Shown: positions 4,849 through 31,034 of the stretch, one piece after another
Layout of the letters: the number at the start of each line of letters is the position of its first letter
Numbering within the stretch: position 1 is the stretch's first letter
Source: a virus
Reading direction: 5' to 3' (one strand)
DNA: 31,282 bases
Virus record (IMG/VR): IMGVR_UViG_3300047328_000104
Location: 1-31,282 of that record
Program-made: the position numbers and the translations under genes
The notes under the pieces: generated by a model
What the model was told of the DNA's origin: nothing
The model's database searches: none
Seen by the model: the letters and a program-made list of their open reading frames with translations, nothing else

Positions 4849-6210
4849 TCAGGTCGCACTTAAAATGATGTTGTCGAAGAACCACGCGTTCGAAGAGGCA
4901 CCGGTTTTGTCCTGGAACGCGAATTTATAAAACGCGTTTTGCACCACCGGAGTCCCCGCGCCCGAGGGGCCGTAGTCGGTCAAAAAGGCAGACAGCGGAA
5001 TCTTGTAGGTCGCCCACTGCCCCACCACCGGCGCAGGCCCATAGTTCAGCGGGTTGATGCTGTAGGCGGTGCCGGTCGAGTCATAAAGTGAGTGATCCCC
5101 GGCTCGAAGCGCATACAGCGCGAAGGAGGGGTTCGCACTGGTCGTCTTCAAATCGATCGAGAGGTAATTAAACGCCCCGACCCACATGTTGAAGCTCGTC
5201 ACGAGGTTGCCTGCGTAGTAGAGCGTCTCCCCGTACTGCGCCGTCATCGACACCTTGATGTCAGACGTCGAGGAGCCGTTCGGCAATCCTGAGGTGTCGG
5301 CGAAGTTCGAGGTCTCGCCGTTGGCGAAATCCCCGCCCCAATTGAACCCGTTCTTGTAGATCTGAAACGCGGGCGCGGCGGACTGCGGCCCCTCATTTCC
5401 CAACGTGTCGACAGCGCTCACCAGATACACATAGCTGTTCGCCTGGTAATAAGGCGCCGTCGTGCCGGGCGTGCCGTTCACGCACGAGGTGGCGGCCGTA
5501 TCCGCGTAGGTGGTGCCGGTAATGCCGCTTGCATAAAGCGTGGGCGTAGCCCCGTTGACCCCGCGGTAGACCTTGTAGCTTGCGACCGGGTGACTGCCGG
5601 CCACGGCCGCCGTCCAGCCGATTTTCTGATAGTTCGGCGACGAGGGCACCGGCGGGCTCGGCGTGTTGTTCGCACTCGTCTGCCCTTGCAGCAAAAGCAG
5701 CACGTTTGCGGGCGCCGCGGGCAGCACGGTGCTCTGCGATAGCGTGGCGGCTTGGCCCGAAACCGTGAACGATCCCGAGTTCGCCACGATTGAGTAAGAT
5801 GAGCTGCCTTGGGAGGTGATCGCCGAAGGTGCGCCTTGAATTTGAAACACCCCGGGCTGCGCAATCATCACGAGCGGGGTTAAGTTAAAGCCGATCTCAA
5901 GCGTATATGAGCTGCCGCCGGGGTTGTTCTGCGACAGCGTCGCCGACTCGCCCGACAGGGAAAAAATGCCAGCGGCCGCACTGAGCTGCCCTTGGCTCGT
6001 GGAAAGCGTTGCAGCTCCCCCGGAGAGCGCGAAGATTCCGGCCGCGGCGGCAAGCTTCGGCGGACTGAAATAGATCGATACCGCTTCGCCTGCGAGCGAA
6101 AAGACGCCGCACGCCGCCGTCAACACCACGTTGTTTCGATCACCCCCATCGAAGGTCCATCGGGAGCTGTCGAAGGTGACTGTGGATGAATCGAAGGTGG
6201 GCGTTGTCAT
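4849..6210 (-). CDS. Tail protein: FSLxGG repeats, FN3-like and carbohydrate-binding-like domains
   Basis: The 453-residue protein starts with short repeats MTTPTFDSSTVTFDSSRWTF. It then has at least four copies of the 'GxFSLSGxxAxL' motif (GVFSLAGEAVSI, GIFALSGGAATL, GIFSLSGESATL, GSFTVSGQAATL) within the first 160 residues. These match the repeats of the protein at 1-963. Residues of about 175-275 resemble a fibronectin type III domain (IGWTAAVAGSHPVASYKVYRG ... YVYLVSAVDTLGNEG). The last 170 residues form a jelly-roll-like segment ending in NAWFFDNIILSAT, typical of carbohydrate-binding modules. Its stop overlaps the tailspike-like gene's 5' neighbour arrangement as TGATG at 6208-6212. It is probably a receptor-contacting tail component. 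Confidence 0.65.
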   Translation of the reverse strand: MTTPTFDSSTVTFDSSRWTFDGGDRNNVVLTAACGVFSLAGEAVSIYFSPPKLAAAAGIFALSGGAATLSTSQGQLSAAAGIFSLSGESATLSQNNPGGSSYTLEIGFNLTPLVMIAQPGVFQIQGAPSAITSQGSSSYSIVANSGSFTVSGQAATLSQSTVLPAAPANVLLLLQGQTSANNTPSPPVPSSPNYQKIGWTAAVAGSHPVASYKVYRGVNGATPTLYASGITGTTYADTAATSCVNGTPGTTAPYYQANSYVYLVSAVDTLGNEGPQSAAPAFQIYKNGFNWGGDFANGETSNFADTSGLPNGSSTSDIKVSMTAQYGETLYYAGNLVTSFNMWVGAFNYLSIDLKTTSANPSFALYALRAGDHSLYDSTGTAYSINPLNYGPAPVVGQWATYKIPLSAFLTDYGPSGAGTPVVQNAFYKFAFQDKTGASSNAWFFDNIILSAT

Positions 6211-8969
6211 CAGCCCGCCATCGTCGTGCCCTTGATCGACACCGCGAGGTTCACCGACCCGCCCGTCAACGTGCCGCCGATCGCGGCGAGCTGCAGCTGC
6301 ACGGGCCCGGAGTACGTGATCGGCGTGTGTGCGGGGATGAAGTAATTGGTGGCCGCGGTGCCGATCGCAATCGTGTTGCCGCCGCCATTGTTGATGAGCG
6401 CAGGCGTCGCCGCGGTGCCGAAGTTTAGGCCCGTAACGCCCGTTCCGGTCAGGGCGCCCGTGACATTGATTGCCCAGGAGTCGATTGCGTAGCCTGGGGG
6501 CAGCCAGATCGGCAGCGCAACGGTGGCGCCTGAAAGCGTGCCTTGAAAGTCCTGCACGTAAGTCTCGCGCATGACGTTGTTCTCGCAGATCGCGGTGTAG
6601 CTGTTGGTGGTGTCATACACCTCCAAGCGATTGCCGTAAGCCAAGCCGCCTTGGCTCGAAATGATGCGCGGCTTCATGTTCTGAAAATTCTGGCCGTTCA
6701 TCAATGAAATGCTAGCCACGTTCGACACCGATGCACTGAGCGCCGGGCTCCAAGTGATCGCCGTCTGGTTCGCAGTGAAGGTCACATAGCGCGTCTCGCC
6801 ATCGCTGAAGCTGACCTCGTAGGAGCCCGCCGGATAGGGGAACGGCGTTTGAAGCGTGCCGCCGGAGCCTGAGACCGAATTGCCCGTGAAAAGCAGCTGC
6901 GTCGCGCGCCAGCCGATGAGCGTGTACTTGAAGAACGACTGCACGGCGAGCGAGTTCTCTGCCGGGCCCACCTGAGTCTTCAAAGACGAGCAGTTGATGA
7001 ACGTGATGGTCGAATCCACGTTGATGTTCTGCCCACCCATCGAGAACCCAGGAACGTAGGTCTGCGCAAGCGGATAGTCCTGCACGACGCCTGAGCTTTT
7101 GATCGTCACGCCGGTGTTGCCGAACTGCCCGTCGCCGAAGAAGGGAAAGCCGATGGGAGATGGGGCGGTGTCGACCCACTCCACATTCAAGCTCACACCT
7201 TGAATGGGAGGCGCGGAAGGGAAACGCGCCACATAGGCGCACGCCTGGGCAGAGTTGACGATCGAGGCGGTCGCGGTTGCGGTGACCGCCGTGCTCCAAG
7301 TCGCGGTCAGCTGCCCAAATACGAGCGCCACGGATTGCGTCACGCCGTTGGAGAAGGTGACCGAGAATGAACCTGAAGGGTAGCGCCAAGGCAACGCGAG
7401 GGTGGCGCTGACAGCGCTTGAGAGCGCGGAGGCAAAGCTGATCGTCTGCTGCTGATACACCGCGCTGTTCAGCTGCACGTAGAGCTTATTGAACGACCCG
7501 TCGGCATTGCTGAATGACATGAAGTCAATGCCGCCGTGCGGGCGCAGGCTCGTGTAATGATTGATCGAGGAGCCGTTTGCTACCTCGATCTTCATCGAAT
7601 CGATGAACCCGGAGCCTGTGTTTCGCGTATTGATGCTGCCGACATACACGCCCTCATCGAAGACGCGGCCGATGTCGAACGTGCACGGGAAGTTGCCCGA
7701 GGCGTCCTGGGAGTGCAGATAGATCAAGTGCGGCGGGGCGAACCAGTTCTGCGACCACTGAACCGCAACGGTGGTTGAGTACGTCGCTGCGGGCAGCGTA
7801 GGCGAGCCGTTCTGGTAGGCGCTCAGAGTCACTGTCGCCGACCCTGCGGCGAAGGCGGCACTCATCGTGTAGCCGGTCGAGAAGGTGATCGCGGTGTTCT
7901 GGTTCTTGTAGGCCCAAGGCGCCTGCAGCGTGATGGTGGTGCCCCCGCTCAACGGCGCGGTCGCGAGCACCATCAAATCAAAACAGGTGCCACCTATATT
8001 GTTGCCATTGGCATCCTGAAGGTCCGAATACCGCACGCCGCGAAGATTGTTAATTTGCAGGTGCAGCGCTTCGTCGCAGATGCCCATCAGATACCCATCA
8101 AACAGGGCATCTTCGATGTAGACATGGCCCGGGCATGCCCCGCCATTGGAGTTTGTGGGCAAAGGGTTGCTGGTCATCACCGAACCCGGAGCCCAGTTCG
8201 CGTGACTTGAGATGCAAAACGGAATGAAGTTGCACGCCGGGGCGCCATCGGGGACGCGCATCTTGGTTTTGCCCAAAAAGCTGATCCGATCGCAGGCGGC
8301 GGAAATGTTGATGAGCGCGCACGCGTTGGTGGCCGAGGGTAGCCCGTAGGAGGAGCCGCCGCCGTTGAACGTCACCGGAGCCCACTGCTGGATGCCGCCG
8401 ATATTCGGCGCGGCCATGAAACCCTTGCCGTAGGTGTCGTTGTAGGTTCCGATCACGCCGTAGTTCGGCGTCATCTGGTTCTGCTGGTCGATTGCGGTCA
8501 CCCCAAAGGTGCCCACGTACAGGATGTCCAGATCGATGAAGGTCACATCGATCATGTTGATGATGTCAAAAAGGTGCAGCATGATGCAGTCGGTGATGAA
8601 GTACCCGACCCCAGGCATGCACTTGACCGTCATCCCGTTGCCCAAAAATAGCGTGCGCGCCGCATTTACGCCGATCGACACGCGCACCGGGCAGTCCACA
8701 TAGAGCACGATCGGCGTGCCCTCATTGATCTGCTGGGCGCAGTAGGCGATAGCCGATTGCAGCGCCGCCCAGCTATCGGTAATCCCTGTGGGATCGATGA
8801 AATTGCCATTCGAATCAGCCCAGCTTGAAAGCGCGAGCCAGTTGGTGCCGATGCCGTTGGCCACGGCGAGGCCTGCGTTGATATTCGGCGCGCCGGCAAG
8901 CAGGCTCGTGCCTAAGCCAGAGTTCGGCGGCGAATCGACCAAATAGCCGATTCGGTTGGGGTTTGGCAT
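6210..8969 (-). CDS. Tailspike-like protein (beta-helix type)
   Basis: At 919 residues this is the longest gene in the window. Residues of about 60-330 read like a pectate-lyase/beta-helix tailspike: TDSWAALQSAIAYCAQQ followed by ladders of short hydrophobic strands with Asn/Gly turns (LFLGNGMTV, DVTFIDLDILYVG). Repeats with the core 'PWxYPxGxYxVTFSxG...TxxxGQxTxTWSxxLxA' occur near residues 526 and 713, with a weaker copy near 353. One more copy is in the 804-residue protein at 1917-4331. The C-terminal 100 residues contain an adhesin-like beta domain. It follows the tail gene at 8980-9408. The role is inferred to be receptor binding or polysaccharide cleavage; no catalytic residues are assigned. 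Confidence 0.7.
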   Translation of the reverse strand: MPNPNRIGYLVDSPPNSGLGTSLLAGAPNINAGLAVANGIGTNWLALSSWADSNGNFIDPTGITDSWAALQSAIAYCAQQINEGTPIVLYVDCPVRVSIGVNAARTLFLGNGMTVKCMPGVGYFITDCIMLHLFDIINMIDVTFIDLDILYVGTFGVTAIDQQNQMTPNYGVIGTYNDTYGKGFMAAPNIGGIQQWAPVTFNGGGSSYGLPSATNACALINISAACDRISFLGKTKMRVPDGAPACNFIPFCISSHANWAPGSVMTSNPLPTNSNGGACPGHVYIEDALFDGYLMGICDEALHLQINNLRGVRYSDLQDANGNNIGGTCFDLMVLATAPLSGGTTITLQAPWAYKNQNTAITFSTGYTMSAAFAAGSATVTLSAYQNGSPTLPAATYSTTVAVQWSQNWFAPPHLIYLHSQDASGNFPCTFDIGRVFDEGVYVGSINTRNTGSGFIDSMKIEVANGSSINHYTSLRPHGGIDFMSFSNADGSFNKLYVQLNSAVYQQQTISFASALSSAVSATLALPWRYPSGSFSVTFSNGVTQSVALVFGQLTATWSTAVTATATASIVNSAQACAYVARFPSAPPIQGVSLNVEWVDTAPSPIGFPFFGDGQFGNTGVTIKSSGVVQDYPLAQTYVPGFSMGGQNINVDSTITFINCSSLKTQVGPAENSLAVQSFFKYTLIGWRATQLLFTGNSVSGSGGTLQTPFPYPAGSYEVSFSDGETRYVTFTANQTAITWSPALSASVSNVASISLMNGQNFQNMKPRIISSQGGLAYGNRLEVYDTTNSYTAICENNVMRETYVQDFQGTLSGATVALPIWLPPGYAIDSWAINVTGALTGTGVTGLNFGTAATPALINNGGGNTIAIGTAATNYFIPAHTPITYSGPVQLQLAAIGGTLTGGSVNLAVSIKGTTMAG

Positions 8970-8979
8970 CGGGGGTGCT

Positions 8980-9408
8980 TTACGAGTTCTGAATGATGCC
9001 GTTGGTCGGATCCAGCGCGATCGTGAAGGTCTGGGTCGCTGAGAGCGTCACGCTCGAGCCGTTGTCCCACCAGCCCATCAACGGCTTCAAGGGCGAGGTC
9101 GGGGTGGCGTCATAGAGCACCGCGTAGCGAAACGGGCCCATCGTGCCGGTTGCGGTCCAGGTCGGCGCCGGCAGCGAGCCCAAAAGCTTCTCCACCCCGC
9201 CGGTTTGCGAGGAGGATTGGCCCGTGATCTGCACGCCGCCTGCGGTGTAACCGGTGCCCGTGCCGATCTCGGTGATGTTCGCGAACACCGTGTTGGTGGC
9301 CACGGGCGCGGTGTTGGTGAGGGCGACGAAAATAGAGTCGGTGGCCAGGTCATGCACCCCGTTGGCCATATTTTGCACGAAGCAATTGAATTTATTGAAC
9401 GATGCCAT
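8980..9408 (-). CDS. Phage tail/connector protein, hypothetical
   Basis: This 142-residue protein begins MASFNKFNCFVQNMANGVHDL and continues ATDSIFVALTNTAPVATNTVFANITEI. That pattern belongs to a family of small phage structural proteins usually found just upstream of tail-fiber genes. The end is beta-rich (SSVTLSATQTFTIALD). It follows the gp10-like fragment by 29 nt and precedes the tailspike by 10 nt. The minus-strand sequence CACGAGGTAGTTC before its ATG offers a GAGG ribosome-binding site. The exact position in the virion is unknown. Confidence 0.65.
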   Translation of the reverse strand: MASFNKFNCFVQNMANGVHDLATDSIFVALTNTAPVATNTVFANITEIGTGTGYTAGGVQITGQSSSQTGGVEKLLGSLPAPTWTATGTMGPFRYAVLYDATPTSPLKPLMGWWDNGSSVTLSATQTFTIALDPTNGIIQNS

Positions 9409-11189: not shown

Positions 11190-11594
11190 TCACCAATCGA
11201 GCTGGTTGCCCGAGGCAGGCGCGGCCCAATTCGGTAGCGGCCGCAGCACGTTGACCGTGTAGATCGTGCTTGCCGTGGGCGTGATCGAGCTTGCCGTCGG
11301 GTTGACGAATTGCAGGGTGAGCGTGTCAGCCGCGCTCACGCGAGCGTTCGTCACCGCGCAGCCATTGGGCGCCGCGCACTGCACTTGCACAAAATCCGTC
11401 GTGAGCAAGCCGATGCCGGTTGCGGCAAAGGATTGCTCCACGGCCGAGGCGGCTGCTACCGCGACGGGCGACAGGGTGAGGGAAAACACGCCGACTTTTT
11501 GGACATTGCCGACGGGCGCTGCCGAGAAATCCGGTGTGTCGAAAGCGGGGCCCGGGTTCGAACCGCCGACGTTGTTGACTACGGGGTATGCCAT
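11190..11594 (-). CDS. Head decoration-like protein
   Basis: The 134-residue protein begins MAYPVVNNVGG. It has the segment GIGLLTTDFVQVQC, then TNARVSAADTLTLQFVNPTA and ITPTASTIYTVNVLRPLP, a pattern I associate with small phage structural proteins next to coat genes. It is 12 nt downstream of the gp5-like coat gene. The duplicate at 10759-11103 shares the layout. A strong intrinsic terminator follows at 11143-11119, making it the last gene before attenuation. The decoration role is inferred. Confidence 0.6.
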   Translation of the reverse strand: MAYPVVNNVGGSNPGPAFDTPDFSAAPVGNVQKVGVFSLTLSPVAVAAASAVEQSFAATGIGLLTTDFVQVQCAAPNGCAVTNARVSAADTLTLQFVNPTASSITPTASTIYTVNVLRPLPNWAAPASGNQLDW

Positions 11595-11606
11595 GACTGA
11601 GCTCCT

Positions 11607-12980
11607 TTAACCTTGCAGCCGGTAGCCGAGCTGCCGGTAGAGACTGGAAAAACCGTACAGGACGTCCATACGGGTCGGCTCCGCGTCGTTGTTCACGGTG
11701 TACTGCGTCACCATGCGGATCGACAGCCCTAAGTCGTCATCCTTCGCCCGCGCAGCCTCTGCCACCGAGCGCGGCAGCGGCAGATCAGCGAAGGCGAGCG
11801 CGAAGGCATCGCGGTAGAACAGAAGCCCCGCCACGCTCGAGGTGCCCGCCGCGGCGCCGCCGTTGATGATGAGCGCAGGCGTTCCGGTGAACGCCGCGCT
11901 CGCCACGCAGTTTTGGAACTGCCCACCGGTGATCGCGCATTCGGCGACCGTGATCGACAGCAACCCGCCCGCGGTCGAGGAATACACCCCAGTGGCGGCG
12001 TTGAAGGTGCCATTGGTTAGCGTGGCGGCAGCAAACTGCGGGCCGCCGGGCAACGCGGCGCCGGACATCGGCGCGTAGCCTGCAGGCGGGATCACGACGA
12101 ATTGCTTTAAGGCCGAGCCGTACTGGCCGCGGTTCTGCGGGTTCGCCGGATAGAGCCCCGTCACCTGGATGATGTCACCCACCGTGACGCGAGGGTTCGC
12201 CGATGCGGTCCAGCCCGAGGTGTTGAACACACCGGTCTGCGCCCAGCCCGAGGTCAAAAGCCCGGAGCCCGCCGCGGCGCTCGTCACGCCAGCGAGCACC
12301 GGCGTGCCGCCGCCGGCGCCCGTGGTCAGGCGCGGGATGTTCTGATCCTCGAACCAGTCGAAGCCCGCGGTCTTCATCGCGATCGCGCCCATCTCGTAGA
12401 TGTCGCTGATGCGAGCTTGCGGGTTGAACTGACCTTTTAAGGCATCGGCCATCGAGGACATCGACAAGGGGTCGAGCACAGCGTTTGGCGTCATGCCCTT
12501 GGGCGCGCCTTCAAAGGCCATGATCGCGCGCGCATCGGAGAACGCTTTGAAGGAGGTGGGCGCGGTGCCCCAGGTCCCGCCCGTCAAGCTCGTGTTCTGG
12601 TAGCCGAAGTACGCGCCATCGGAGTCGATACGATTGGCCACGGCCGCCATCGCCGGCTTAATGAAGCGCTCCTTGAAGTCATCGATCTGCAGCAAGAGGT
12701 CGACTTCTTGGAATTGCACATCGACGTGGAACTGGTAGTTCAGCGACACCGGGATATAGGTCTCGGTCGAGGGCTCCACATTTAGCGCAGGCCCAAAAGT
12801 GCCGAAGTACCGGGGCGGGCGGCGCACGTTGCAGGTGGCGCCGATTTTGGCGTTCTTCACCGCAAACTCATCGCTGTATTGGCGGTTGAATTTATCGGTG
12901 AGCACGCACTCGTTCGAGAGGACGGGCAGCGCCGTCTTCGTGATATAGCTCGTGGTCAGCAGTGTGTTAGGCACGGACAA
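11607..12980 (-). CDS. Major capsid (coat) protein, P22 gp5 family
   Basis: At 457 residues it has the expected length for the P22 coat family. The N-terminus (NTLLTTSYITKTALPVLSNE) and the following CNVRRPPRYFGTFG, VDVQFQEVDLLLQIDDFKER and FIKPAMAAVANRID are characteristic of this HK97-fold group. The middle (residues of about 210-370) is a Gly/Ala/Thr-rich insertion. The C-terminus LRIDVLYGF-like stretch (TRMDVLYGFSSLYRQLGYRLQG) is also usual. It sits downstream of the scaffold gene, matching the P22 order portal-scaffold-coat. The product assembles the procapsid shell with the scaffold and portal proteins. Confidence 0.85.
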   Translation of the reverse strand: MSVPNTLLTTSYITKTALPVLSNECVLTDKFNRQYSDEFAVKNAKIGATCNVRRPPRYFGTFGPALNVEPSTETYIPVSLNYQFHVDVQFQEVDLLLQIDDFKERFIKPAMAAVANRIDSDGAYFGYQNTSLTGGTWGTAPTSFKAFSDARAIMAFEGAPKGMTPNAVLDPLSMSSMADALKGQFNPQARISDIYEMGAIAMKTAGFDWFEDQNIPRLTTGAGGGTPVLAGVTSAAAGSGLLTSGWAQTGVFNTSGWTASANPRVTVGDIIQVTGLYPANPQNRGQYGSALKQFVVIPPAGYAPMSGAALPGGPQFAAATLTNGTFNAATGVYSSTAGGLLSITVAECAITGGQFQNCVASAAFTGTPALIINGGAAAGTSSVAGLLFYRDAFALAFADLPLPRSVAEAARAKDDDLGLSIRMVTQYTVNNDAEPTRMDVLYGFSSLYRQLGYRLQG

Positions 12981-22352: not shown

Positions 22353-22556
22353 CTAGGCGTGTTCAGTCGGGTAAATGTCGGGGCGCAACTCGTGACGACT
22401 GACGCCAGTCACACGCTCGATAGCGATAACGCGCTCGGCGGGGACGCGAACGTTTTTTCGAGTCCACTTTTGAACGGACTGCTGGGTAACTCCCAATGCT
22501 TGGGCAAGACGAACTTGACTTCCCGCCGCCTGAATCGCGCGTTGAATGGCTTTCAT
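22353..22556 (-). CDS. Cro-like repressor (YdaS-type HTH)
   Basis: The 67-residue product MKAIQRAIQAAGSQVRLAQA, then LGVTQQSVQKWTRKNVRVPA, ERVIAIERVTGVSRHELRPD is a typical small Cro/YdaS-like helix-turn-helix protein. It faces away from the repressor gene. The promoter's -10 box lies 7 nt from its ATG, so the transcript should start at or just before the ATG and be leaderless. It is expected to compete with the repressor at shared ACTATCGGGTGT-type operators and promote lytic growth. Confidence 0.75.
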   Translation of the reverse strand: MKAIQRAIQAAGSQVRLAQALGVTQQSVQKWTRKNVRVPAERVIAIERVTGVSRHELRPDIYPTEHA

Positions 22557-22593
22557 GCGCGATAAATTACGACTATCGGGTGTATTTGGTCAA
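22557..22593 (-). promoter_or_regulatory. Leftward early promoter with operator
   Basis: On the minus strand TTGACC (22593-22588), an 18-nt spacer and TAATTT (22569-22564) form a strong promoter for the Cro-like gene. The spacer contains ACACCCGATAGT, the complement of ACTATCGGGTGT at 22572-22583. The 30-nt core matches the rightward promoter at 23264-23293 at 26 positions. A second partial half-site (GATAGT) lies at 22599-22604. Confidence 0.8.
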
Positions 22594-22632
22594 GCACTGA
22601 TAGTGGATCGACCCCACGGCAAACTACACCCT

Positions 22633-23097
22633 ATGACTGTATTTACCCGCGATGACATCAAAAACAGTTTCGCCGAGAGGTTGGCGCACGCCTGCGACCG
22701 CATAGCGGATTGCCCTAAAAAAAGGGGTCGTGCTGCTTGGCTAGCGCGTCAAATGGATCTGAATCAGAATTCGATCCTTAAATGGTTTTCCGGTATGAGC
22801 GTGCCCGATCAAACCAATGTGGTGCGCTTGGCAACGCTCCTGAGGGTTAACGCTCAGTGGCTACAGGTCGGCCCCGGCAGTGAAGTTATCCCAGATAACA
22901 ACGATGACTTTTGGGAGAAAATCAGGCCGCTTCTACCGCATTTGGACGAACGCGCGAAAACCGCCATCCTGCATTACGCGCAAATTGAAGCATCCAGCGC
23001 GCCGAAGATTCGCTTACCTGCGACGTTTCCAAATGAAAATGAACCAGAAGAGCCTGGTCTCGAATTGCCACCCTTTCGCGATCCGATTACTAAATAG
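22633..23097 (+). CDS. CI-like prophage repressor
   Basis: I chose ATG 22633 (154 residues) because residues 1-80 then form a clean helix-turn-helix domain (FAERLAHACDRIADCPKKRG, AAWLARQMDLNQNSILKWFS, TNVVRLATLLRVNAQWLQVG). The open frame to 22546 overlaps the Cro promoter. The remaining 70 residues (DDFWEKIRPLLPHLDERAKT and a Pro/Glu-rich tail) do not resemble an S24 LexA-type protease domain, so RecA-driven self-cleavage is not predicted. No Shine-Dalgarno sequence is visible upstream. It probably binds the operators at 22572 and 23247-23291. Confidence 0.75.
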   Translation: MTVFTRDDIKNSFAERLAHACDRIADCPKKRGRAAWLARQMDLNQNSILKWFSGMSVPDQTNVVRLATLLRVNAQWLQVGPGSEVIPDNNDDFWEKIRPLLPHLDERAKTAILHYAQIEASSAPKIRLPATFPNENEPEEPGLELPPFRDPITK

Positions 23098-23246: not shown

Positions 23247-23293
23247 ATTACTACTATCGGGTGTTGACTAACTACACCCGATAGTAGTAATGT
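23247..23293 (+). promoter_or_regulatory. Rightward early promoter inside an 18-bp-arm palindromic operator
   Basis: A perfect inverted repeat has 18-bp arms (23247-23264 and 23274-23291) and a 9-nt spacer. It contains ACTATCGGGTGT and its complement. TTGACT (23264-23269), an 18-nt spacer and TAATGT (23288-23293) form a promoter overlapped by the right arm, so a bound repressor should block it. It drives the early genes starting at 23329. Confidence 0.85.
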
Positions 23294-23831: not shown

Positions 23832-24031
23832 TTACGCTGTGCCTCGATCCCAACACCTACGCCGTCGTGCTCGCGGGCTTAAAGCTCTCAGCGTCCACCG
23901 CCGAGCGCCGCTGCGCGCCTGAGTTGGCCGAACGGTTTCGCACCGCGCAGGCCGAGGTCGAGCAATCCCATGCGTTTTTCTCCGAGCGCACGCTCGAGAT
24001 CACCCCGGCGCTGCTTCGGAGGCAGGCATGA
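23828..24031 (+). CDS. 67-residue hypothetical early protein
   Basis: The gene is translationally coupled on both sides (ATGA). The product MITLCLDPNTYAVVLAGLKL, then SASTAERRCAPELAERFRTA is a short alpha/beta protein with a helical centre and no recognised motif. The in-frame start at 23738 would overlap the membrane-protein gene, so ATG 23828 is favoured. Confidence 0.55.
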   Translation: MITLCLDPNTYAVVLAGLKLSASTAERRCAPELAERFRTAQAEVEQSHAFFSERTLEITPALLRRQA

Positions 24032-24879
24032 ACTCGATCGAATCCCGCGTCCCGCGCGAGGACTACGACGCCATCGAGGCGCTCTCGATGTCGCGCCTGA
24101 AAGAAATTCGCCGCTCCCCGCAGCACTACCGCTACGCCCTCTCGCACCGGCGCGAGACCGATGCCTTAAAGCTCGGCACCGCCGCGCACGTGGCCGCGTT
24201 GGAGCCCGAGCGCTTCGGCACGGAGTTTGCGATCTGGAACCGGCGCACCGAGTCCGGGCGCGCAGCTCCCCGCAATGGCAAGTGGTGGGATGCCTTTCAG
24301 CTCGAGCACAAGGGCCGCTCGATCCTGACCGAGGATGAGGCGATCGAGGCGACCTCCATAGCGCTTGCCGTGCGGCGCGATGAGACGGCGTCGAAGTACT
24401 TAGCGCAAGGTGATCCTGAGGTCACCATGCAGTGGCAGATCGATGGGCGCGCGTGTAAGGGCCGCGCGGATTGGCTCACCACGATCGAGGGCGAGCGGTA
24501 CCTCGTAGGCCTTAAAACGACCCGCGACTGCCGCCACTTCGCCTTCGGCAGCCAAGCGGCGAAGTTGGACTACGCCCTGCAATGGGCGTGGTACTTGGAC
24601 GGCTACGAGGCGATCACGGGGCACACGCCGCACCTGATTGAGATCGTGGTCGAGAACACCGCCCCGTATGCGGTTGCCACCTATCGCATCGAGAACGACA
24701 TCCTGCTGCAGGGACGCGATAACTACCGCGAACTCCTGAAAATCCTGCGCGACTGCGAGGCCGCGGGCGAGTGGCCGGGCCCGGTGGTGGGCGAGCAGAT
24801 ATTGACGCTCCCCTCGTGGTACTACCCTTTGAATGAGGCCGAGGATCTCGCGGATCTTGGCTTGGAGCCGATCTCATGA
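24028..24879 (+). CDS. RecE/Cas4-like PD-(D/E)XK exonuclease
   Basis: The 283-residue protein matches the exonuclease VIII/DUF3799-type family. It has LSMSRLKEIRRSPQHYRYAL, then DALKLGTAAHVAALEPERF in the N-terminal domain, E131 in PEVTMQWQID, D148 in CKGRADWLTT, K163 in YLVGLKTTRD, and the DYALQWAWYLDGYEAITG helix with conserved Gln and Tyr. The usual D-x-K is G161-L-K163, so one metal ligand is missing. It would resect double-strand ends in phage recombination with a ssDNA-binding partner. The start overlaps the previous stop by ATGA. Confidence 0.75.
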   Translation: MNSIESRVPREDYDAIEALSMSRLKEIRRSPQHYRYALSHRRETDALKLGTAAHVAALEPERFGTEFAIWNRRTESGRAAPRNGKWWDAFQLEHKGRSILTEDEAIEATSIALAVRRDETASKYLAQGDPEVTMQWQIDGRACKGRADWLTTIEGERYLVGLKTTRDCRHFAFGSQAAKLDYALQWAWYLDGYEAITGHTPHLIEIVVENTAPYAVATYRIENDILLQGRDNYRELLKILRDCEAAGEWPGPVVGEQILTLPSWYYPLNEAEDLADLGLEPIS

Positions 24880-25894: not shown

Positions 25895-26317
25895 ATGACC
25901 AAATACACCAAACTAGATTCCACCGGCGCCGCGCTGCCGCCCAAAGCCGATGGCCATTTGGCCGTCCAGGTCGAGCACCCGCTTCTCGCCGCGCCGCTCA
26001 TCTTCACCGCGCACCGATCCCAGGCGATGACGCACAAGGAGGCGATCAAATGGGCGGCCGGCCTCGACATCAACGGCTGGTCTTGGAGGTTGCCAACCGT
26101 GGAGGAGGCGTTTTTCCTCGCCGACCGTTTGAAGTATCCGGCGCTCGACGTTACGTATTTCCCGGACTTCGACTACGAGTGGATTTGGACCAGCACCGTG
26201 GACGCCGAAGATCCCTCGGACTTCGCGTGGGGCGTCGCCCTCCGCGCTGGCGCCTCCGGTCGGCTTCTTCAGAGCTCTCACGGTCACGTCCGCGCGGTCC
26301 GCGCCAGTCAGTCCTAG
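25895..26317 (+). CDS. DGR target protein 1 (DUF1566-like)
   Basis: The 140-residue protein carries a DUF1566/Lcl-C-type C-type-lectin-like fold: SWRLPTVEEAFFLADRLKYP, LDVTYFPDFDYEWIWTSTVD and the C-terminal HVRAVRAS. Codons 106-138 are variable repeat 1; its diversified positions include Phe110, Gly113, Ala115, Arg117, Ala118, Ala120, Gly122, Leu124, Leu125, Ser128 and Gly130. An AGGAAG site precedes the ATG. It shares its N-terminal pattern (TKYTKLDSTG) with the second target. No signal peptide or membrane segment is seen, so its binding partner and location are unknown. Confidence 0.85.
   Translation: MTKYTKLDSTGAALPPKADGHLAVQVEHPLLAAPLIFTAHRSQAMTHKEAIKWAAGLDINGWSWRLPTVEEAFFLADRLKYPALDVTYFPDFDYEWIWTSTVDAEDPSDFAWGVALRAGASGRLLQSSHGHVRAVRASQS
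26212..26308 (+). repeat. DGR variable repeat 1 (VR1)
   Basis: VR1 aligns without gaps to the template at 27416-27512. All 19 differences are at template adenines (9 to G, 6 to C, 4 to T). The last 22 nt (26287-26308) are identical and GC-rich, the likely initiation-of-mutagenic-homing region. The first base after the repeat is C in VR and G in the template. Confidence 0.95.
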
Positions 26318-26352
26318 GTCTTTTGGTAACCCACTACCCAAGGAATAACGCA

Positions 26353-26928
26353 ATGAATGCATTTGCCAAAGACATCCGGAATTTGATCGCGCAGCGTCTC
26401 GCCGTGGCCGCCGATGACGATGTGATCCGCTTGGTCGCCGCGCTCTGCGCGAACGACCCAGTTGTCGAGAATGAGGCGGCCTATGCCGTGGCGGCCAGCA
26501 GCCGATATACGAAGATCGATGCGGCCGGTCGACCAGTCGCCCCTTCCGCTTCCGATTGGGTCGCGGTTGCCGATGCGCAGACCGGCCTGACCTGGACCCG
26601 CAAGGTCTTGGATTGCGGCGAGGTCGATCACGCTGATGCCATGAAGGCTGCCGGCGCCGTCAGGCTCTTTGGGGCGACCGACTGGCGCGCACCGACGATC
26701 CAAGAACAGCTGTCGATCATCGACTATGAGCGCTTCGATCCCGCGCTCGATACGACGTACTTTGATGGGCCGGCCGGGTGGACTTGGACCAGCACTCTGG
26801 CAAAGTCTCCCTCGGACTACGCGTGGAGCGTCGACCTCACCGATGGCGTCTCCCTTCGGAATCCTCAGAGCGCTCACCTTCGCGTCCGCGCGGTCCGCGC
26901 CAGTCAGCAATTGGTTTTAGGCGTCTAG
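26353..26928 (+). CDS. DGR target protein 2 (DUF1566-like)
   Basis: I chose ATG 26353 (191 residues) with AGGAATA upstream; the longer frame to 26050 is a shadow of target 1. Residues 1-50 are helical (FAKDIRNLIAQRLAVAADDD). After SSRYTKIDAAGRPVAP comes the DUF1566-like core GLTWTRKVLDCGEVDHADAM, DWRAPTIQEQLSIIDYERFD, TTYFDGPAGWTWTST. Codons 152-184 hold variable repeat 2, with diversified residues such as Ser159, Asp161, Thr163, Val166, Leu168, Pro171, Ala174, Leu176 and Arg177. The Thr-Trp-Thr and RVRAVRAS ends are C-lectin-like. It has no export signal. Confidence 0.88.
   Translation: MNAFAKDIRNLIAQRLAVAADDDVIRLVAALCANDPVVENEAAYAVAASSRYTKIDAAGRPVAPSASDWVAVADAQTGLTWTRKVLDCGEVDHADAMKAAGAVRLFGATDWRAPTIQEQLSIIDYERFDPALDTTYFDGPAGWTWTSTLAKSPSDYAWSVDLTDGVSLRNPQSAHLRVRAVRASQQLVLGV
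26806..26904 (+). repeat. DGR variable repeat 2 (VR2)
   Basis: VR2 aligns without gaps to the template at 27414-27512. All 13 differences are at template adenines (5 to G, 5 to C, 3 to T). The conserved 3' 22 nt are at 26883-26904. Twelve of the 13 sites are also changed in VR1. Confidence 0.95.
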
Positions 26929-26931
26929 GCG

Positions 26932-27357
26932 ATGTTCAATAGCCTGCCGCCCATCGCTCGACTTGCGCAGCGCATCCTCGCCGATATCGAGAATGCCGTG
27001 CGCCGGTTTCCGAGGTATCACAAATACACGGTGGGCAGCGACCTGCGGGCGCAGGCGATGGCGGTCGCGAGGTGCACGCATCGCGCCTGGCGGGATGCCG
27101 ACCGCAAGCTCGAGCGCGTCGAGCAGCTGGGTGAGGCAATCGATGATCTGAAGATTTCCCTTCAGTTGGCCAAGCAGGTAAACGCATTCGGAAGTTTCGG
27201 CGAATTTGAGGCCATCGCAAGGTCTGTCAACGATCTAGGTCGGCAGAGTGGCGGGTGGCGGAAACAGTTAGCTAATGGCCAGAATGGGAGGACGTCCGCG
27301 TCTTCCCAGCGTGCATCGACACTGAGTTCCCCGGTCGCCCACGAGGCAACCCTATGA
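26932..27357 (+). CDS. avd: Avd-like accessory protein of the DGR
   Basis: The 141-residue product has the four-helix pattern of DGR accessory variability determinants, including the typical motif RRFPRYHKYTVGSDLRAQAM at residues 24-43 and the helices RDADRKLERVEQLGEAIDDL and KISLQLAKQVNAFGSFGEFE. In known DGRs Avd forms a basic pentameric barrel that binds RT and template RNA. The C-terminal 30 residues (NGQNGRTSASSQRAST) look disordered. It starts three bases after the second target gene and ends as ATGA with the RT gene. Confidence 0.85.
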   Translation: MFNSLPPIARLAQRILADIENAVRRFPRYHKYTVGSDLRAQAMAVARCTHRAWRDADRKLERVEQLGEAIDDLKISLQLAKQVNAFGSFGEFEAIARSVNDLGRQSGGWRKQLANGQNGRTSASSQRASTLSSPVAHEATL

Positions 27358-28649
27358 CAACTCCGCGCTACCCATTAGGATGTGCGGAGAAGTCCCAAGT
27401 ATCTGGGATAGCGTCTCCCTCGGACTACGCGTGGAACGTCAACCTCAACGATGGCAACTCCAATCGGAATCATCAGAGCAATCACAATCACGTCCGCGCG
27501 GTCCGCGCCAGTGAGTGTCCAGCAACATTCCCTTCACTCCACTCTGCCTGGCGGCGTACGCGCCGCGGTAAACGCCCAAGTCCCGATCAGCTGACGTTCG
27601 ACAGCTATTGGATCGACAACCTGTTCGCGCTCCAGGCGCGCATCAACTCACTCACTTGGGAGCCCGGGAAGCCAACCTGCTTCATCGCGACCCAGCCGAA
27701 GGCGCGCGAGATCCATGCGCCGCCCTTCGCTGACCGGGTCGTCCACCATTGGCTCGTCCCGCAGCTTGAGGCGATCTACGAGCGCACGTTCATTCACGAC
27801 AGCTACTCGAACCGCGTCGGCAAAGGCACACATGCCGCGGTCGATCGCCTGAACGGGTTCATCCGCCAAGTCCACAGCGGCCAGGGCGGAGGCTGGTACC
27901 TGCAACTCGACATCGCGAATTTCTTCAACTCGATCAATCGACCGATTCTGTACGCGATGCTCAAGAAGCGGATGGAGCGCCACGGCATCCCGCTGGTCGC
28001 GCGCCGCGCCGCGCATGCCCTGCTGCGACGCTCTCCGGTAGCCGATGGGGTAAATTTCATCGGTTCCGAGGTTGAGCGCGCCCGGGTGCCTGCGCATAAG
28101 CGCCTCGAGAACGCGGCCGTGGGGTGTGGCCTGGCGATAGGGAATCTGTCCAGCCAGTTCTTTGCGAACGTGTACCTCAACGAACTCGACCAGTTCGTGA
28201 AGCACGAGCTCAAGGCCGAGCGTTACCTGCGATACGTGGATGATTTCGTGCTCGTCCATCGCGACCGGGGCCAGCTCCGGGACTGGCAACTCAAGGTCCG
28301 CGACTTTCTGCGCGGCCGGTTGTCGCTTGAGCTCAAAGCCGACATCAAATTGAAGCCGCTCGTCGCGGGGTGCGATTTCTTGGGCTACGTGGTGTACCCA
28401 ACCCACGCGGTCGTGCGGCGGCGAGTCATCAGCCACGCTCGAGCAAAGCTGAATGCTTGGGAACGCCGGCACATTGAAGGTCGCCGGATCCGTGCGAGCC
28501 GCGGCGAATTGGAAGGCTTGCGTTCTGTGTGGGCTTCTTACGAAGGCCATTTTCGTCACGCGCGCCACCACAAGCTGATTCGACGGCTGCATCAAGAATA
28601 CCCGTGGCTGCAGCCAAGTATTTCCATGCCTAAAGGGCCACTCGCATGA
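27354..28649 (+). CDS. DGR reverse transcriptase
   Basis: The 431-residue product (ATG 27354, coupled to Avd) has RT motif A WYLQLDIANFFNSI (D186), the DGR-type motif GLAIGNLSSQFFANVYLNEL (residues of about 259-278), YVDD at 294-297 as the catalytic pair D296/D297, and a thumb-like LVAGCDFLGYVVYP segment. RT-related sequence begins near residue 79. The template repeat encodes residues 21-53, and no ATG, GTG or TTG in the right frame exists between it and the RT domain, so the template is probably translated as an N-terminal extension. Start at ATG 27354 is chosen by the ATGA overlap; a CTG start downstream is possible. Confidence 0.92.
   Translation: MTTPRYPLGCAEKSQVSGIASPSDYAWNVNLNDGNSNRNHQSNHNHVRAVRASECPATFPSLHSAWRRTRRGKRPSPDQLTFDSYWIDNLFALQARINSLTWEPGKPTCFIATQPKAREIHAPPFADRVVHHWLVPQLEAIYERTFIHDSYSNRVGKGTHAAVDRLNGFIRQVHSGQGGGWYLQLDIANFFNSINRPILYAMLKKRMERHGIPLVARRAAHALLRRSPVADGVNFIGSEVERARVPAHKRLENAAVGCGLAIGNLSSQFFANVYLNELDQFVKHELKAERYLRYVDDFVLVHRDRGQLRDWQLKVRDFLRGRLSLELKADIKLKPLVAGCDFLGYVVYPTHAVVRRRVISHARAKLNAWERRHIEGRRIRASRGELEGLRSVWASYEGHFRHARHHKLIRRLHQEYPWLQPSISMPKGPLA
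27414..27512 (+). repeat. DGR template repeat (TR), inside the RT reading frame
   Basis: The template contains 25 adenines. In the RT frame eight codons are AAC or AAT, the design expected for broad amino acid diversity, since AAY randomisation gives 15 residues but no stop. The encoded segment reads SPSDYAWNVNLNDGNSNRNH then QSNHNHVRAVRAS. The likely initiation region is the last 22 nt. The base after the template is G, versus C after both VRs, which marks template from target ends. Confidence 0.95.
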
Positions 28650-29230
28650 CCATCGAAGCATACCCACTTACCTGGCCGCCGGGCTGGAAACGCACCGTGA
28701 GCCGAAAAGACGCCGCCTTCCGCGAGGGTGGCAGCCGCGGCCGGCGCCTTGAGCTCACCGACGGCGTGCGCCGCGTTTTCGACGAATTGAGCCGTCTCAA
28801 TATTCGCGAGGAGAACGTCGTGATCTCCTCAAATGTGCGCCCGACCTTGGGCGGCCGCGGCGGCGCGATCACCGTGCAGGACGCGGGCGTCGCGGTGTAC
28901 TGGACCGACAAACAGAAGCGCCAGCGCTGCATCGCGGTTGATCGCTACACGCGAGTCCCGGACAACCTGGCCGCGATCGCGGCGACGCTGGAAGCGATGC
29001 GCGCGATCGAACGGCACGGCGGTGCCGAGATTTTGGACCGCGCCTTCACCGGTTTCACCGCGCTGCCCGCCCCCGAGCAGCCGTTTGAGGTTTTGGGCGT
29101 GGGTGCGCACGCAAGCCGTGAGGAGATCGAGCGCGCCTATCGACTCCTTGCGTCAAAGCATCACCCGGACAAGGGCGGTGATCCGGACATGATGGCGCGC
29201 ATCAACGCCGCGCGCGAGGCGATGCTGTGA
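28646..29230 (+). CDS. J-domain protein
   Basis: The 194-residue product ends in a DnaJ-like J domain (residues of about 149-192): FEVLGVGAHASREEIERAYR, LLASKHHPDKGGDPD with H173-P174-D175 as the HPD motif, then MMARINAAREAML. The N-terminal 140 residues are not a known chaperone part and contain TYP-like PLTWPPGWKRTVSRKDAAFR. J-domains stimulate host DnaK. The gene is coupled to the RT gene by ATGA. It may assist phage protein folding or replication; its inclusion in the DGR transcript is notable. Confidence 0.8.
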   Translation: MTIEAYPLTWPPGWKRTVSRKDAAFREGGSRGRRLELTDGVRRVFDELSRLNIREENVVISSNVRPTLGGRGGAITVQDAGVAVYWTDKQKRQRCIAVDRYTRVPDNLAAIAATLEAMRAIERHGGAEILDRAFTGFTALPAPEQPFEVLGVGAHASREEIERAYRLLASKHHPDKGGDPDMMARINAAREAML

Positions 29231-29232
29231 CT

Positions 29233-29339
29233 GTCCATCGAGAGGGGTTTGAACCGACGACCTTCCCCTGCCGGGGCTGCTCTACCACACCTGCCGGTGC
29301 CTGGTTTGTGTATGCCAGGATACTGAGCTACCGATGGAC
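29233..29339 (-). pseudogene. tRNA-like remnant
   Basis: On the minus strand an 8-bp outer stem (GTCCATCG/CGATGGAC), TAGCTCAGT and later GGTAGAGC (D-stem parts) and GGTTCAAACCC (T loop) follow tRNA order. A T-C-G-A-T-G-G-A end gives an A discriminator. Faults: about 33 nt inserted in the D loop, containing a CCTGG/CCAGG hairpin; the T stem has two mismatches; CCCC/GGGG encloses only a 4-nt anticodon loop. It is probably not a working tRNA but a degenerate tRNA or a former integration-target fragment. Confidence 0.5.
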
Positions 29340-29372
29340 GGCTGAAGTTTACATCAAACACAGTGACCTATC

Positions 29373-29615: not shown

Positions 29616-29878
29616 GCGAGCGCGCGGCGTTGAACGGCTGGCAAACGATGGACTCCGCGCCCAGGGACGGCACGCAAATCCTTGTCTGCACCGTGGTCGA
29701 TTTTGACGGCGTTGCCGCATGGTATTACTTCACCATATTTTGGACCGGTCTCAATTGGAGCCACCAACTGAATTGGCTGTTGCCGCCCCAGTATTGGCAA
29801 CCCATCCCGCCGCCTCCCTACACATCAACCGTGAACGCCAACGTTAGTGTGACGAACTACCCGAGGAATCCGACGTGA
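29612..29878 (+). CDS. Hypothetical Trp/Tyr-rich phage protein
   Basis: The 88-residue product from GTG 29612 has NGWQTMDSAPRDGTQILVCT and, near the end, LLPPQYWQPIPPPPYT. The 'GWQTMDSAPRDGTxIL' and 'W-PxPPPP' pattern is a common phage-encoded small protein (DUF551-like) of unknown function. It overlaps the next gene by GTGA. Confidence 0.6.
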   Translation: MSERAALNGWQTMDSAPRDGTQILVCTVVDFDGVAAWYYFTIFWTGLNWSHQLNWLLPPQYWQPIPPPPYTSTVNANVSVTNYPRNPT

Positions 29879-30198
29879 ACGACGACGTCATGAGCGTCGA
29901 GGAGGCGGCCACATTCTTGCGCTTAACGCCGCCGACGGTGCGCCAGATGGCAAGCCGCGGCATGATCCCCGGGCGGCGCTATGGCAAGCTGTGGCGCTTT
30001 TCACGCCGGCAGCTGCTGGCTCACATCGAGGCGGGTAACGCATGTCCCTCTACAAACGCTCCGGCTCCGGTCACTACTGGTGTCGATTCACGCTCGGCGG
30101 TCGACGCATTCAGCAATCTACCGGCACGTCGGACAGGAAGTGCGCCGAAGAATACGAGCAAAGGCTTCAAGGTCGTATCTGGCGGGAAACCCGGCTAG
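29875..30198 (+). CDS. Excisionase-like HTH protein
   Basis: The product from GTG 29875 (107 residues; ATG 29890 is an alternative) has a helix-turn-helix of the excisionase/MerR type in residues 6-52: SVEEAATFLRLTPPTVRQMA, SRGMIPGRRYGKLWRFSRRQ, LLAHIEAG. It would bend att DNA and steer the integrase toward excision. The last 50 residues are Ser/Pro/Gly-rich and overlap the integrase N-terminus in another frame by 157 nt. Confidence 0.7.
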   Translation: MNDDVMSVEEAATFLRLTPPTVRQMASRGMIPGRRYGKLWRFSRRQLLAHIEAGNACPSTNAPAPVTTGVDSRSAVDAFSNLPARRTGSAPKNTSKGFKVVSGGKPG

Positions 30199-31034
30199 GC
30201 GAGCGCACCGGCACGTGGGCGCAGGCCGTCAAGCGCTGGGAGTCCGAGCGCACCGCGCGCGCCTCGACCAGGCATCGCGATAAGGAAATAACCGACTGGT
30301 TGAGTTTAGGCATGGCGCGCCTGCCGCTCTCGGCCATCAACTCAGACGTGATCGAAGCCGCCCGCAAAAAGCTCCTCGACGGCCGCGCGCCGGCCACCGT
30401 GAATCGTTACATGGCGGTGCTGCGCGCGATTCTGCGCGCCGCGGTGACCTGGGGCTGGATCCAGTACGCGCCCAAAATCACGATCCCGAAGTTGAAGGAT
30501 GCCGAGCCGCGCTTCATTACCCGTGAGCAGTTCGCGCGCCTTCGGGATGCGCTGCCGCCGCACATGCGCCCGATCGCCGAGTTCGCCGTGCTCACGGGCC
30601 TGCGCACCGCGAACATCCGCGAACTCGTCTGGGGCCGCGTGGACTTAGAGCGCGCGCATCTGTGGGTGGGGTCGCTGTCGATGAAGGGAGGCCGTGCCGT
30701 GGGCATCGCGCTGTCGCCCGAAGCGGTGCGGGTACTGCGCGCCATACCCCGCCTCGCCGGCCAGGAGCGGGTGTTCCTTTATGAGGGCAAGCCGCTGATG
30801 CAGTCTTTCGGCAAACGCACTTGGCGTAAAGCGCGCGGGAAAGCCGGCCTTGAGGGATTGCGGTTCCACGACCTCAGGCACACGTGGGCGAGCTGGCTGA
30901 TGCAAGCCGGGGCGCCAAAGTATGCGATTCAGGCGCTTGGCGGTTGGGCGAGCCCCGCGATGGTGGAGCGGTACGCGCACTTGAGCCCGGAGCACTTGAA
31001 GGAATGGGCGGCGATGGCGAAGATCAGTGCATGA
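30042..31034 (+). CDS. int: Tyrosine site-specific integrase
   Basis: The 330-residue recombinase has an N-terminal arm-binding domain (SGSGHYWCRFTLGGRRIQQS), a SAM-like core-binding region (about residues 70-150) and a catalytic domain with R188 (TGLRTANI), K215 (SMKGGR), H276 and R279 (HDLRHTW), W302 in place of the second His (LGGWAS), and the nucleophile Y311 (VERYAHLS). It integrates and excises the phage at att sites. As the outermost recombination gene it marks the likely edge of the prophage; the att site should lie nearby. Confidence 0.92.
   Translation: MSLYKRSGSGHYWCRFTLGGRRIQQSTGTSDRKCAEEYEQRLQGRIWRETRLGERTGTWAQAVKRWESERTARASTRHRDKEITDWLSLGMARLPLSAINSDVIEAARKKLLDGRAPATVNRYMAVLRAILRAAVTWGWIQYAPKITIPKLKDAEPRFITREQFARLRDALPPHMRPIAEFAVLTGLRTANIRELVWGRVDLERAHLWVGSLSMKGGRAVGIALSPEAVRVLRAIPRLAGQERVFLYEGKPLMQSFGKRTWRKARGKAGLEGLRFHDLRHTWASWLMQAGAPKYAIQALGGWASPAMVERYAHLSPEHLKEWAAMAKISA

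Follow-up and report, generated by a model that had tools for sequence, protein, structure and literature searches.

The DGR of this phage probably diversifies two small cytoplasmic C-type-lectin binding proteins that are made early, under repressor control, and work within the cell, not as virion components. The early, non-virion nature of the two targets is the more secure part of this reading, and we regard it as likely. The pattern is firm and the timing well supported; the function is one that we infer, and a counter-defence role, taken alone, is tentative. The DGR anatomy, the adenine-specific divergence, the packing of the operon, the operator-like sites, the apparent lack of export signals and the split between early- and tail-module DGRs on the RT tree were all read from the sequence. 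The whole stretch of DNA analyzed (hereafter the window) is a 31,282-base virus contig from IMG/VR, the ends of which fall at gene boundaries, consistent with a trimmed provirus.

An intact DGR with two short targets

A three-copy repeat on the plus strand was resolved into one TR and two VRs (Table 1). All 25 TR adenines fall at codon position 1 or 2 in the target frame, and both VRs differ from the TR solely at TR adenines. At the 3′ end both VRs read GCCAGTCAG and the TR reads GCCAGTGAG, which appears to be the expected IMH/IMH*-type difference. Together with a DGR-type RT and an adjoining Avd, these features confirm, at the level of sequence, the presence of an intact DGR, and mutagenic retrohoming would be recognized here by its footprint of A-only divergence. 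Near-identical contigs sought for VR variation within populations (L019–L022 and L044–L047) carried other target types. PADLOC models gave no match to the targets and matched only the RT, generically as a reverse transcriptase.

Table 1. Positions and supporting evidence for the DGR, the early operon and the late genes in the window.
Feature	Position	Strand	Evidence or remark
Pectate-lyase-like spike	6210–8969	−	No VR
Major head protein, portal, terminase	11.6–17.7 kb	−	
Cro-like HTH regulator	22353–22556	−	phrog_35 transcriptional repressor, E 6e-23
CI-like repressor, immunity region	22546–23097	+	phrog_2967, E 1e-8; phrog_4, E 1e-6
Operator-like site between cro-like gene and repressor	22566–22583	+	94% copy of the 23247–23264 arm; contains the 12-mer ACTATCGGGTGT
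Operator-like palindrome	23247–23291	+	18-bp perfect arms, 9-nt spacer; inverted repeat 100%; overlaps PL-like promoter
Exonuclease-VIII/RecE-like recombination gene	24028–24879	+	phrog_412, E 1e-58; 4-nt overlaps with neighbors
DGR target 1 (140 aa), single Lcl_C (C-type lectin) domain	25895–26317	+	PF07603, 51.5 bits (curated cut-off 34.9)
VR1 core	26212–26308	+	19/19 mismatches to TR at TR adenines (97-nt core; chance 2.5e-15)
DGR target 2 (191 aa), N-terminal helices and Lcl_C domain	26353–26928	+	PF07603, 85 bits (cut-off 34.9)
VR2 core	26808–26904	+	13/13 mismatches to TR at TR adenines (97-nt core; chance 1.1e-9)
Avd accessory protein	26932–27357	+	phrog_3206, E 3e-17; PF22296 bAvd, E 1.6e-6, under Pfam cut-off
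DGR reverse transcriptase (RT)	27354–28649	+	phrog_1423, E 6e-96; start overlaps Avd stop (ATGA)
TR	27416–27512	+	Inside RT reading frame
J-domain protein	28646–29230	+	PF00226, E 1e-9; phrog_9210, E 6e-40; 4-nt overlap with RT
Excisionase-like HTH protein	29875–30198	+	phrog_1840, E 1.8e-7
Tyrosine integrase	30042–31034	+	PF00589, E 1e-30

Both targets carry the VR at the C-terminus and match Lcl_C, which points to a C-type-lectin fold. The longest open reading frame for target 2, starting at 26050, was discarded, as it crosses target 1 in another frame and the start at 26353 aligns with relatives. The structure model of target 2 (mean pLDDT 84) comprised helices at residues 2–18, 21–33 and 41–47 followed by the lectin domain, and its best solved-structure match was the C-terminal domain (CTD) of Legionella Lcl (8q4e, E 5.7e-4), to which target 2 was also related by sequence profile (E 0.0013). 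Structure matches also included DUF1566 proteins and a jumbo-phage "virion structural protein". The model of target 1 was poor (pLDDT 63), the fold being too uncertain for a structure search. A protein search of the phages collection with target 2 gave no match, and a viral-contig scan with it recovered one relative.

The preliminary description held that neither target has a signal peptide or transmembrane segment, and none was detected by hydropathy (best 19-residue Kyte–Doolittle means 1.09 and 1.23), the export calls for the window targets and for relatives alike being made by this heuristic and not by SignalP or TMHMM. No known fibre domain was found in either target by PHROG and Pfam searches, no anchoring or trimerization domain was found in target 1, and profile searches and PADLOC revealed no STAND, TIR or protease effector domain in the targets or their neighbors.

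The foremost alternative, which we consider unlikely, is that the targets are virion adhesins or decoration proteins encoded at an unusual locus, attached via other proteins and serving receptor switching as in BPP-1. The C-type-lectin fold is a classic adhesin fold as well, the closest solved structure is that of Legionella Lcl, DUF1566-like domains are found in phage fibre-like and virion proteins, and the jumbo-phage structure match is a counterpoint to our preferred reading. For most phage DGR targets, moreover, both characterization and prediction point to tail adhesins (PMC8144416). Against this stand the lack of an anchoring or trimerization domain in target 1 and the presence in the window of its own spike-like gene free of a VR. 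Where a BPP-1-type tail adhesin would be a long target with a virion-attachment domain, the window encodes proteins of 140 and 191 aa.

The DGR lies in a putative early operon

From 23.3 to 31 kb, the plus strand encodes in order small genes, the exonuclease-VIII-like gene, three small genes, target 1, target 2, Avd, RT, the J-domain gene, further small genes, the excisionase-like gene and the integrase. As far as the J-domain gene, the junctions are overlaps of 1–4 nt or gaps of at most 43 nt, and a consensus scan revealed no terminator-like site on the plus strand before 28.3 kb. A PL-like promoter candidate at the palindrome (TTGACT, 18 nt, TAATGT) was read by eye and missed by the consensus scan. 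The 12-mer ACTATCGGGTGT has three exact copies in the window, all in the immunity region (0 in 100 shuffles). Repressor and cro genes with shared operators and a left operon form the layout of lambda OR/OL, and because the operator layout in the window matches it, the DGR most likely belongs to an early-left operon. The targets thus appear to belong to a tight plus-strand operon bounded by a repressor-type operator/promoter at ~23.25 kb and by the integrase. The J-domain gene, previously counted among the early genes, does lie in this plus-strand operon and counts as early only through its position. On the minus strand near the integrase, a tRNA-like hairpin with an 8-bp acceptor-like stem was observed (29231–29341); the tRNA call was dropped, ARAGORN and Rfam giving no match, and the hairpin is possibly a tRNA remnant or att-related.

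The targets had been proposed to be made in the lysogen or early in infection. The operator-like palindrome at the head of the operon is shared with the repressor/cro-like intergenic region, which makes expression in early infection or upon induction likelier than constitutive expression in the lysogen. The lysogen half of the proposal is accordingly less favored; leaky or alternative-promoter expression in the lysogen is possible.

Every recognizable structural gene is on the minus strand, in the stretch from 6 to 17.7 kb. Profile matches and strand therefore bear out the earlier placement of the targets on the plus strand beside early genes, including the integrase, with the tail genes on the other strand; neither target lies among or beside tail genes of the late strand, as it would in a BPP-1-type system, both being in the plus-strand early operon. 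The accompanying figure of more than 16 kb to the tail is 15.5–16.9 kb according to the gene counted, measured along a record that is a linear provirus. Once the genome is excised and circular, position 1, where the late operon ends, could lie ~5 kb from the targets, just as the lambda tail-fibre genes lie near att–int. Since the circle may bring the late operon near, linear distance is unsound, and it is strand and operon that carry the argument. Large minus-strand proteins of the late region at 1–963, 1917–4331 and 4849–6210 had no PHROG match; large proteins of this region carry repeated FSLAG-like motifs or a chitobiase-type C-terminal domain, and these three are possible fibre or spike proteins.

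Early-module and tail-module DGRs separate on the RT tree

RT relatives were drawn from viral contigs, annotated phages and bacterial genomes, and their TR/VR pairs were located computationally. With early and tail labels assigned by us from neighbors and target length, the 27 early-module and 17 tail-module DGRs on a 67-RT tree required 2 changes, compared with a mean of 13.8 for shuffled labels (0/500 as low). The sole exception (L027), a further counterpoint to our preferred reading, lies on a long branch in the same large RT clade, and its target, a fibre-like protein of 682 aa, is set in a tail context. Tail-side DGRs had single targets of ~316–492 aa, and early-module DGRs usually had 2–3 tandem targets of ~113–242 aa.

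To check the split independently, the genome neighborhoods were compared as aggregates of the 25 commonest families, several contigs being fragments. Top PHROG matches were DNA methyltransferase, integrase, ParB-like, helicase, repressor and RecE/RecT around early-type loci (84 and 78 proteins), and baseplate, tape measure and tail around tail-type loci (68 proteins). A same-strand downstream integrase was present in 21/51 early, 1/10 tail and 1/19 cellular loci. Terminase (phrog_2) and exonuclease VIII (phrog_412) were too insensitive as layout markers, being matched in 8/35 and 1/35 of the relatives' records, respectively. Among individual contigs, L004, L010, L028, L039 and L057 have a C5-cytosine methylase-like gene no more than a few hundred bases downstream of the RT, L005 and L009 have ParB-domain proteins, L014 has three targets, and L008 has a target downstream of the RT (VR at 11672).

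The early layout was present in five isolates, Magia, LPPA56, Cruim01, QDWS and Haboob, each with 2–3 VRs in short open reading frames; BPP-1, ACA1, VP58.5 and PE002 each have one VR, in a 381–492-aa target among tail genes. The early type spans isolated phages of Burkholderia, Pseudomonas and Shewanella as well as many Xanthomonadaceae and Rhodanobacteraceae prophages, and in the QDWS neighborhood one gene is annotated as a host nuclease inhibitor. The same cassette occurs in a phage described as a myophage, Magia (PMC7883833), and in one described as a siphovirus, Cruim01 (PMC11256456), which suggests that the early layout is independent of tail type. The RT tree, the neighbor families, the number and length of the targets and the five isolates together support the earlier claim that the targets travel with early genes and not with the tail. 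They also weigh against virion adhesins, given an early operon on the opposite strand, a cassette that occurs with different tail types and an RT clade apart from tail DGRs. In the literature covered, which was incomplete, we found no description of early-module phage DGRs as a class.

The Burkholderia phage Magia, LPPA56, Cruim01, Haboob and the Shewanella phage QDWS share with the window short lectin-fold targets, Avd, TR and RT in an early module. As in the window, the early module of the Magia group also contains recombination genes and an integrase, with structural genes on the opposite strand. The group differs in that its RTs are 35–37% identical to that of the window and form a separate subclade, and its targets fall under the Pfam Lcl_C cut-off. 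The accessible part of the Magia genome announcement mentions a DGR and two short target genes, naming only genes 47 and 57, and does not discuss early placement as a class (PMC7883833). Magia gp46 (L077, 11242–11332), unlisted in that part of the announcement, also carries a VR, with 11 A-only mismatches.

Prophage and cellular relatives

The nearest chromosomal relatives (RT identity 53–65%), from Xanthomonadaceae, Rhodanobacteraceae and some Burkholderiales, adjoin integrases, CI-like repressors and methyltransferases, and their targets, a few of them uncertain ORF picks, are 113–234 aa long and lack export signals. The next relatives (RT identity 41–53%) are chromosomal DGRs whose targets mostly have a signal-peptide-like start. 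Unlike these cellular sisters, the 25 prophage-like loci have targets without such a start. On a 106-RT tree, the window's clade (38 rows, SH-aLRT 99) was sister to the cellular exported-target DGRs, and the Magia/LPPA56 clade was separate from it. This distribution suggests that loss or avoidance of export accompanies the move into phage early modules, and, together with the early/tail split on the RT tree, it favors early, cytoplasmic, non-virion targets. Proteobacterial chromosomal DGRs (L108, L109, L113 and others) have the closest non-phage RTs to that of the window, and differ in their signal-peptide-like targets and in having no Avd/RT ATGA junction before the TR (0/20).

A DGR from candidate division KSB1 (L164) has two VR-bearing targets, at 11466–12527 and 7217–9073, one a TIR-Lcl_C protein and the other an Lcl_C protein that also matches nSTAND3, weakly and under the cut-off. 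By its domain composition, this locus resembles DGR-diversified immune sensors and offers a possible precedent for the same variable domain working inside the cell. It bears on a second alternative, ranking below virion adhesins, in which the targets are made in the lysogen and benefit the host, for instance by acting as variable sensors or in superinfection exclusion. In its favor, putative immune sensors are diversified by cellular relatives (PMC10907252; L164), and prophage copies are common in Xanthomonadaceae and Rhodanobacteraceae. However, the window targets lie downstream of an operator-like, repressor-type promoter, have no effector domain fused to them and have no export signal for surface exclusion.

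The TR lies within the RT reading frame

The RT frame opens at the ATG at 27354, overlapping the Avd stop, and over 27354–27530 it takes in the whole TR; in the window, no further ATG, GTG or TTG occurs in this frame ahead of the RT core. The same ATGA junction and open TR were found in the viral relatives checked singly (L004–L010, L012 and L014), and an in-frame upstream ATGA with a frame open through the TR was found in 25/25 prophage-like loci (L085–L107, L116 and L126), compared with 0/20 ATGA junctions in cellular sisters. The TR frame in the RT is the TR frame in the targets in the viral relatives, except L007. Given this open frame from the ATGA through the TR, the TR may be translated as the RT N-terminus in the window's clade. 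In L015–L018, RT start codons lie within the 3′ part of the TR. We found no description of a TR translated as part of the RT in the literature covered, which did not include the main DGR survey.

Discussion

We propose that the operon is mostly silenced in the lysogen and that, upon infection or induction, it would be transcribed early, the targets, Avd and RT being made together. Mutated cDNA would then replace the VRs in replicating genomes by retrohoming, and each packaged variant genome would be tried in the next cell via its own early targets, thereby linking genotype to phenotype without a virion component. The most likely use would be to bind and neutralize variable host or resident-prophage proteins. 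Methyltransferases, recombination genes and host nuclease inhibitors are the usual company of counter-defence genes, and it is because methyltransferases, recombination genes and the QDWS host nuclease inhibitor are found nearby that counter-defence is our leading guess. Binding of host or rival-phage proteins, as suggested in the preliminary description, fits the cytoplasmic lectin architecture and the cellular TIR/STAND-like relatives, and the partners are putative. A more specific picture, about which we are doubtful, is one of self-mutating cytoplasmic inhibitors in a temperate-phage lineage, tracking variable intracellular defence or prophage proteins as a phage counterpart of the DGR-diversified sensors proposed for bacteria, with the TR of the window's clade also translated within the RT.

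The least probable alternative is that the cassette is cargo that entered a permissive accessory slot of the early operon, its position being uninformative on function. In lambdoid phages, accessory genes are often found between the recombination genes and the integrase, and neighbors vary among the relatives. Against this, early placement recurs over three RT subclades and several phage types with VRs still adenine-specific, and both the linkage to Avd/RT and the pairing of short targets are conserved.

Compared with known systems, the mtd/brt DGR of Bordetella phage BPP-1 shares the RT, Avd, TR, C-terminal VR and adenine mutagenesis, and differs in having one 381-aa target beside tail genes, an intergenic TR outside brt and an RT ~31% identical to that of the window. 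For the clade 5 cellular DGRs, which occur in multicellular bacteria, a role in diversifying putative antigen sensors for intracellular recognition has been proposed (PMC10907252). They share C-terminal C-type-lectin targets, sometimes with a short lectin-only target paired with a longer one (PMC10907252). In these systems the lectin domain is joined to, or neighbors, a STAND, TIR or protease effector, whereas that of the window is free-standing and phage-borne, with no such effector in the targets or their neighbors.

Receptor switching is the role assigned almost automatically to phage DGRs. A distinct RT lineage whose targets are short, usually paired, not exported and encoded in repressor-controlled early operons implies a second, intracellular use of targeted hypermutation in phages, one that is testable with phages already cultured, and the presence of a DGR alone is no basis for predicting host range. 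The arrangement extends beyond this phage to a whole prophage lineage. If our preferred reading of early, intracellular targets is true, it would connect the DGRs of phages with those cellular ones by which putative immune sensors are diversified.
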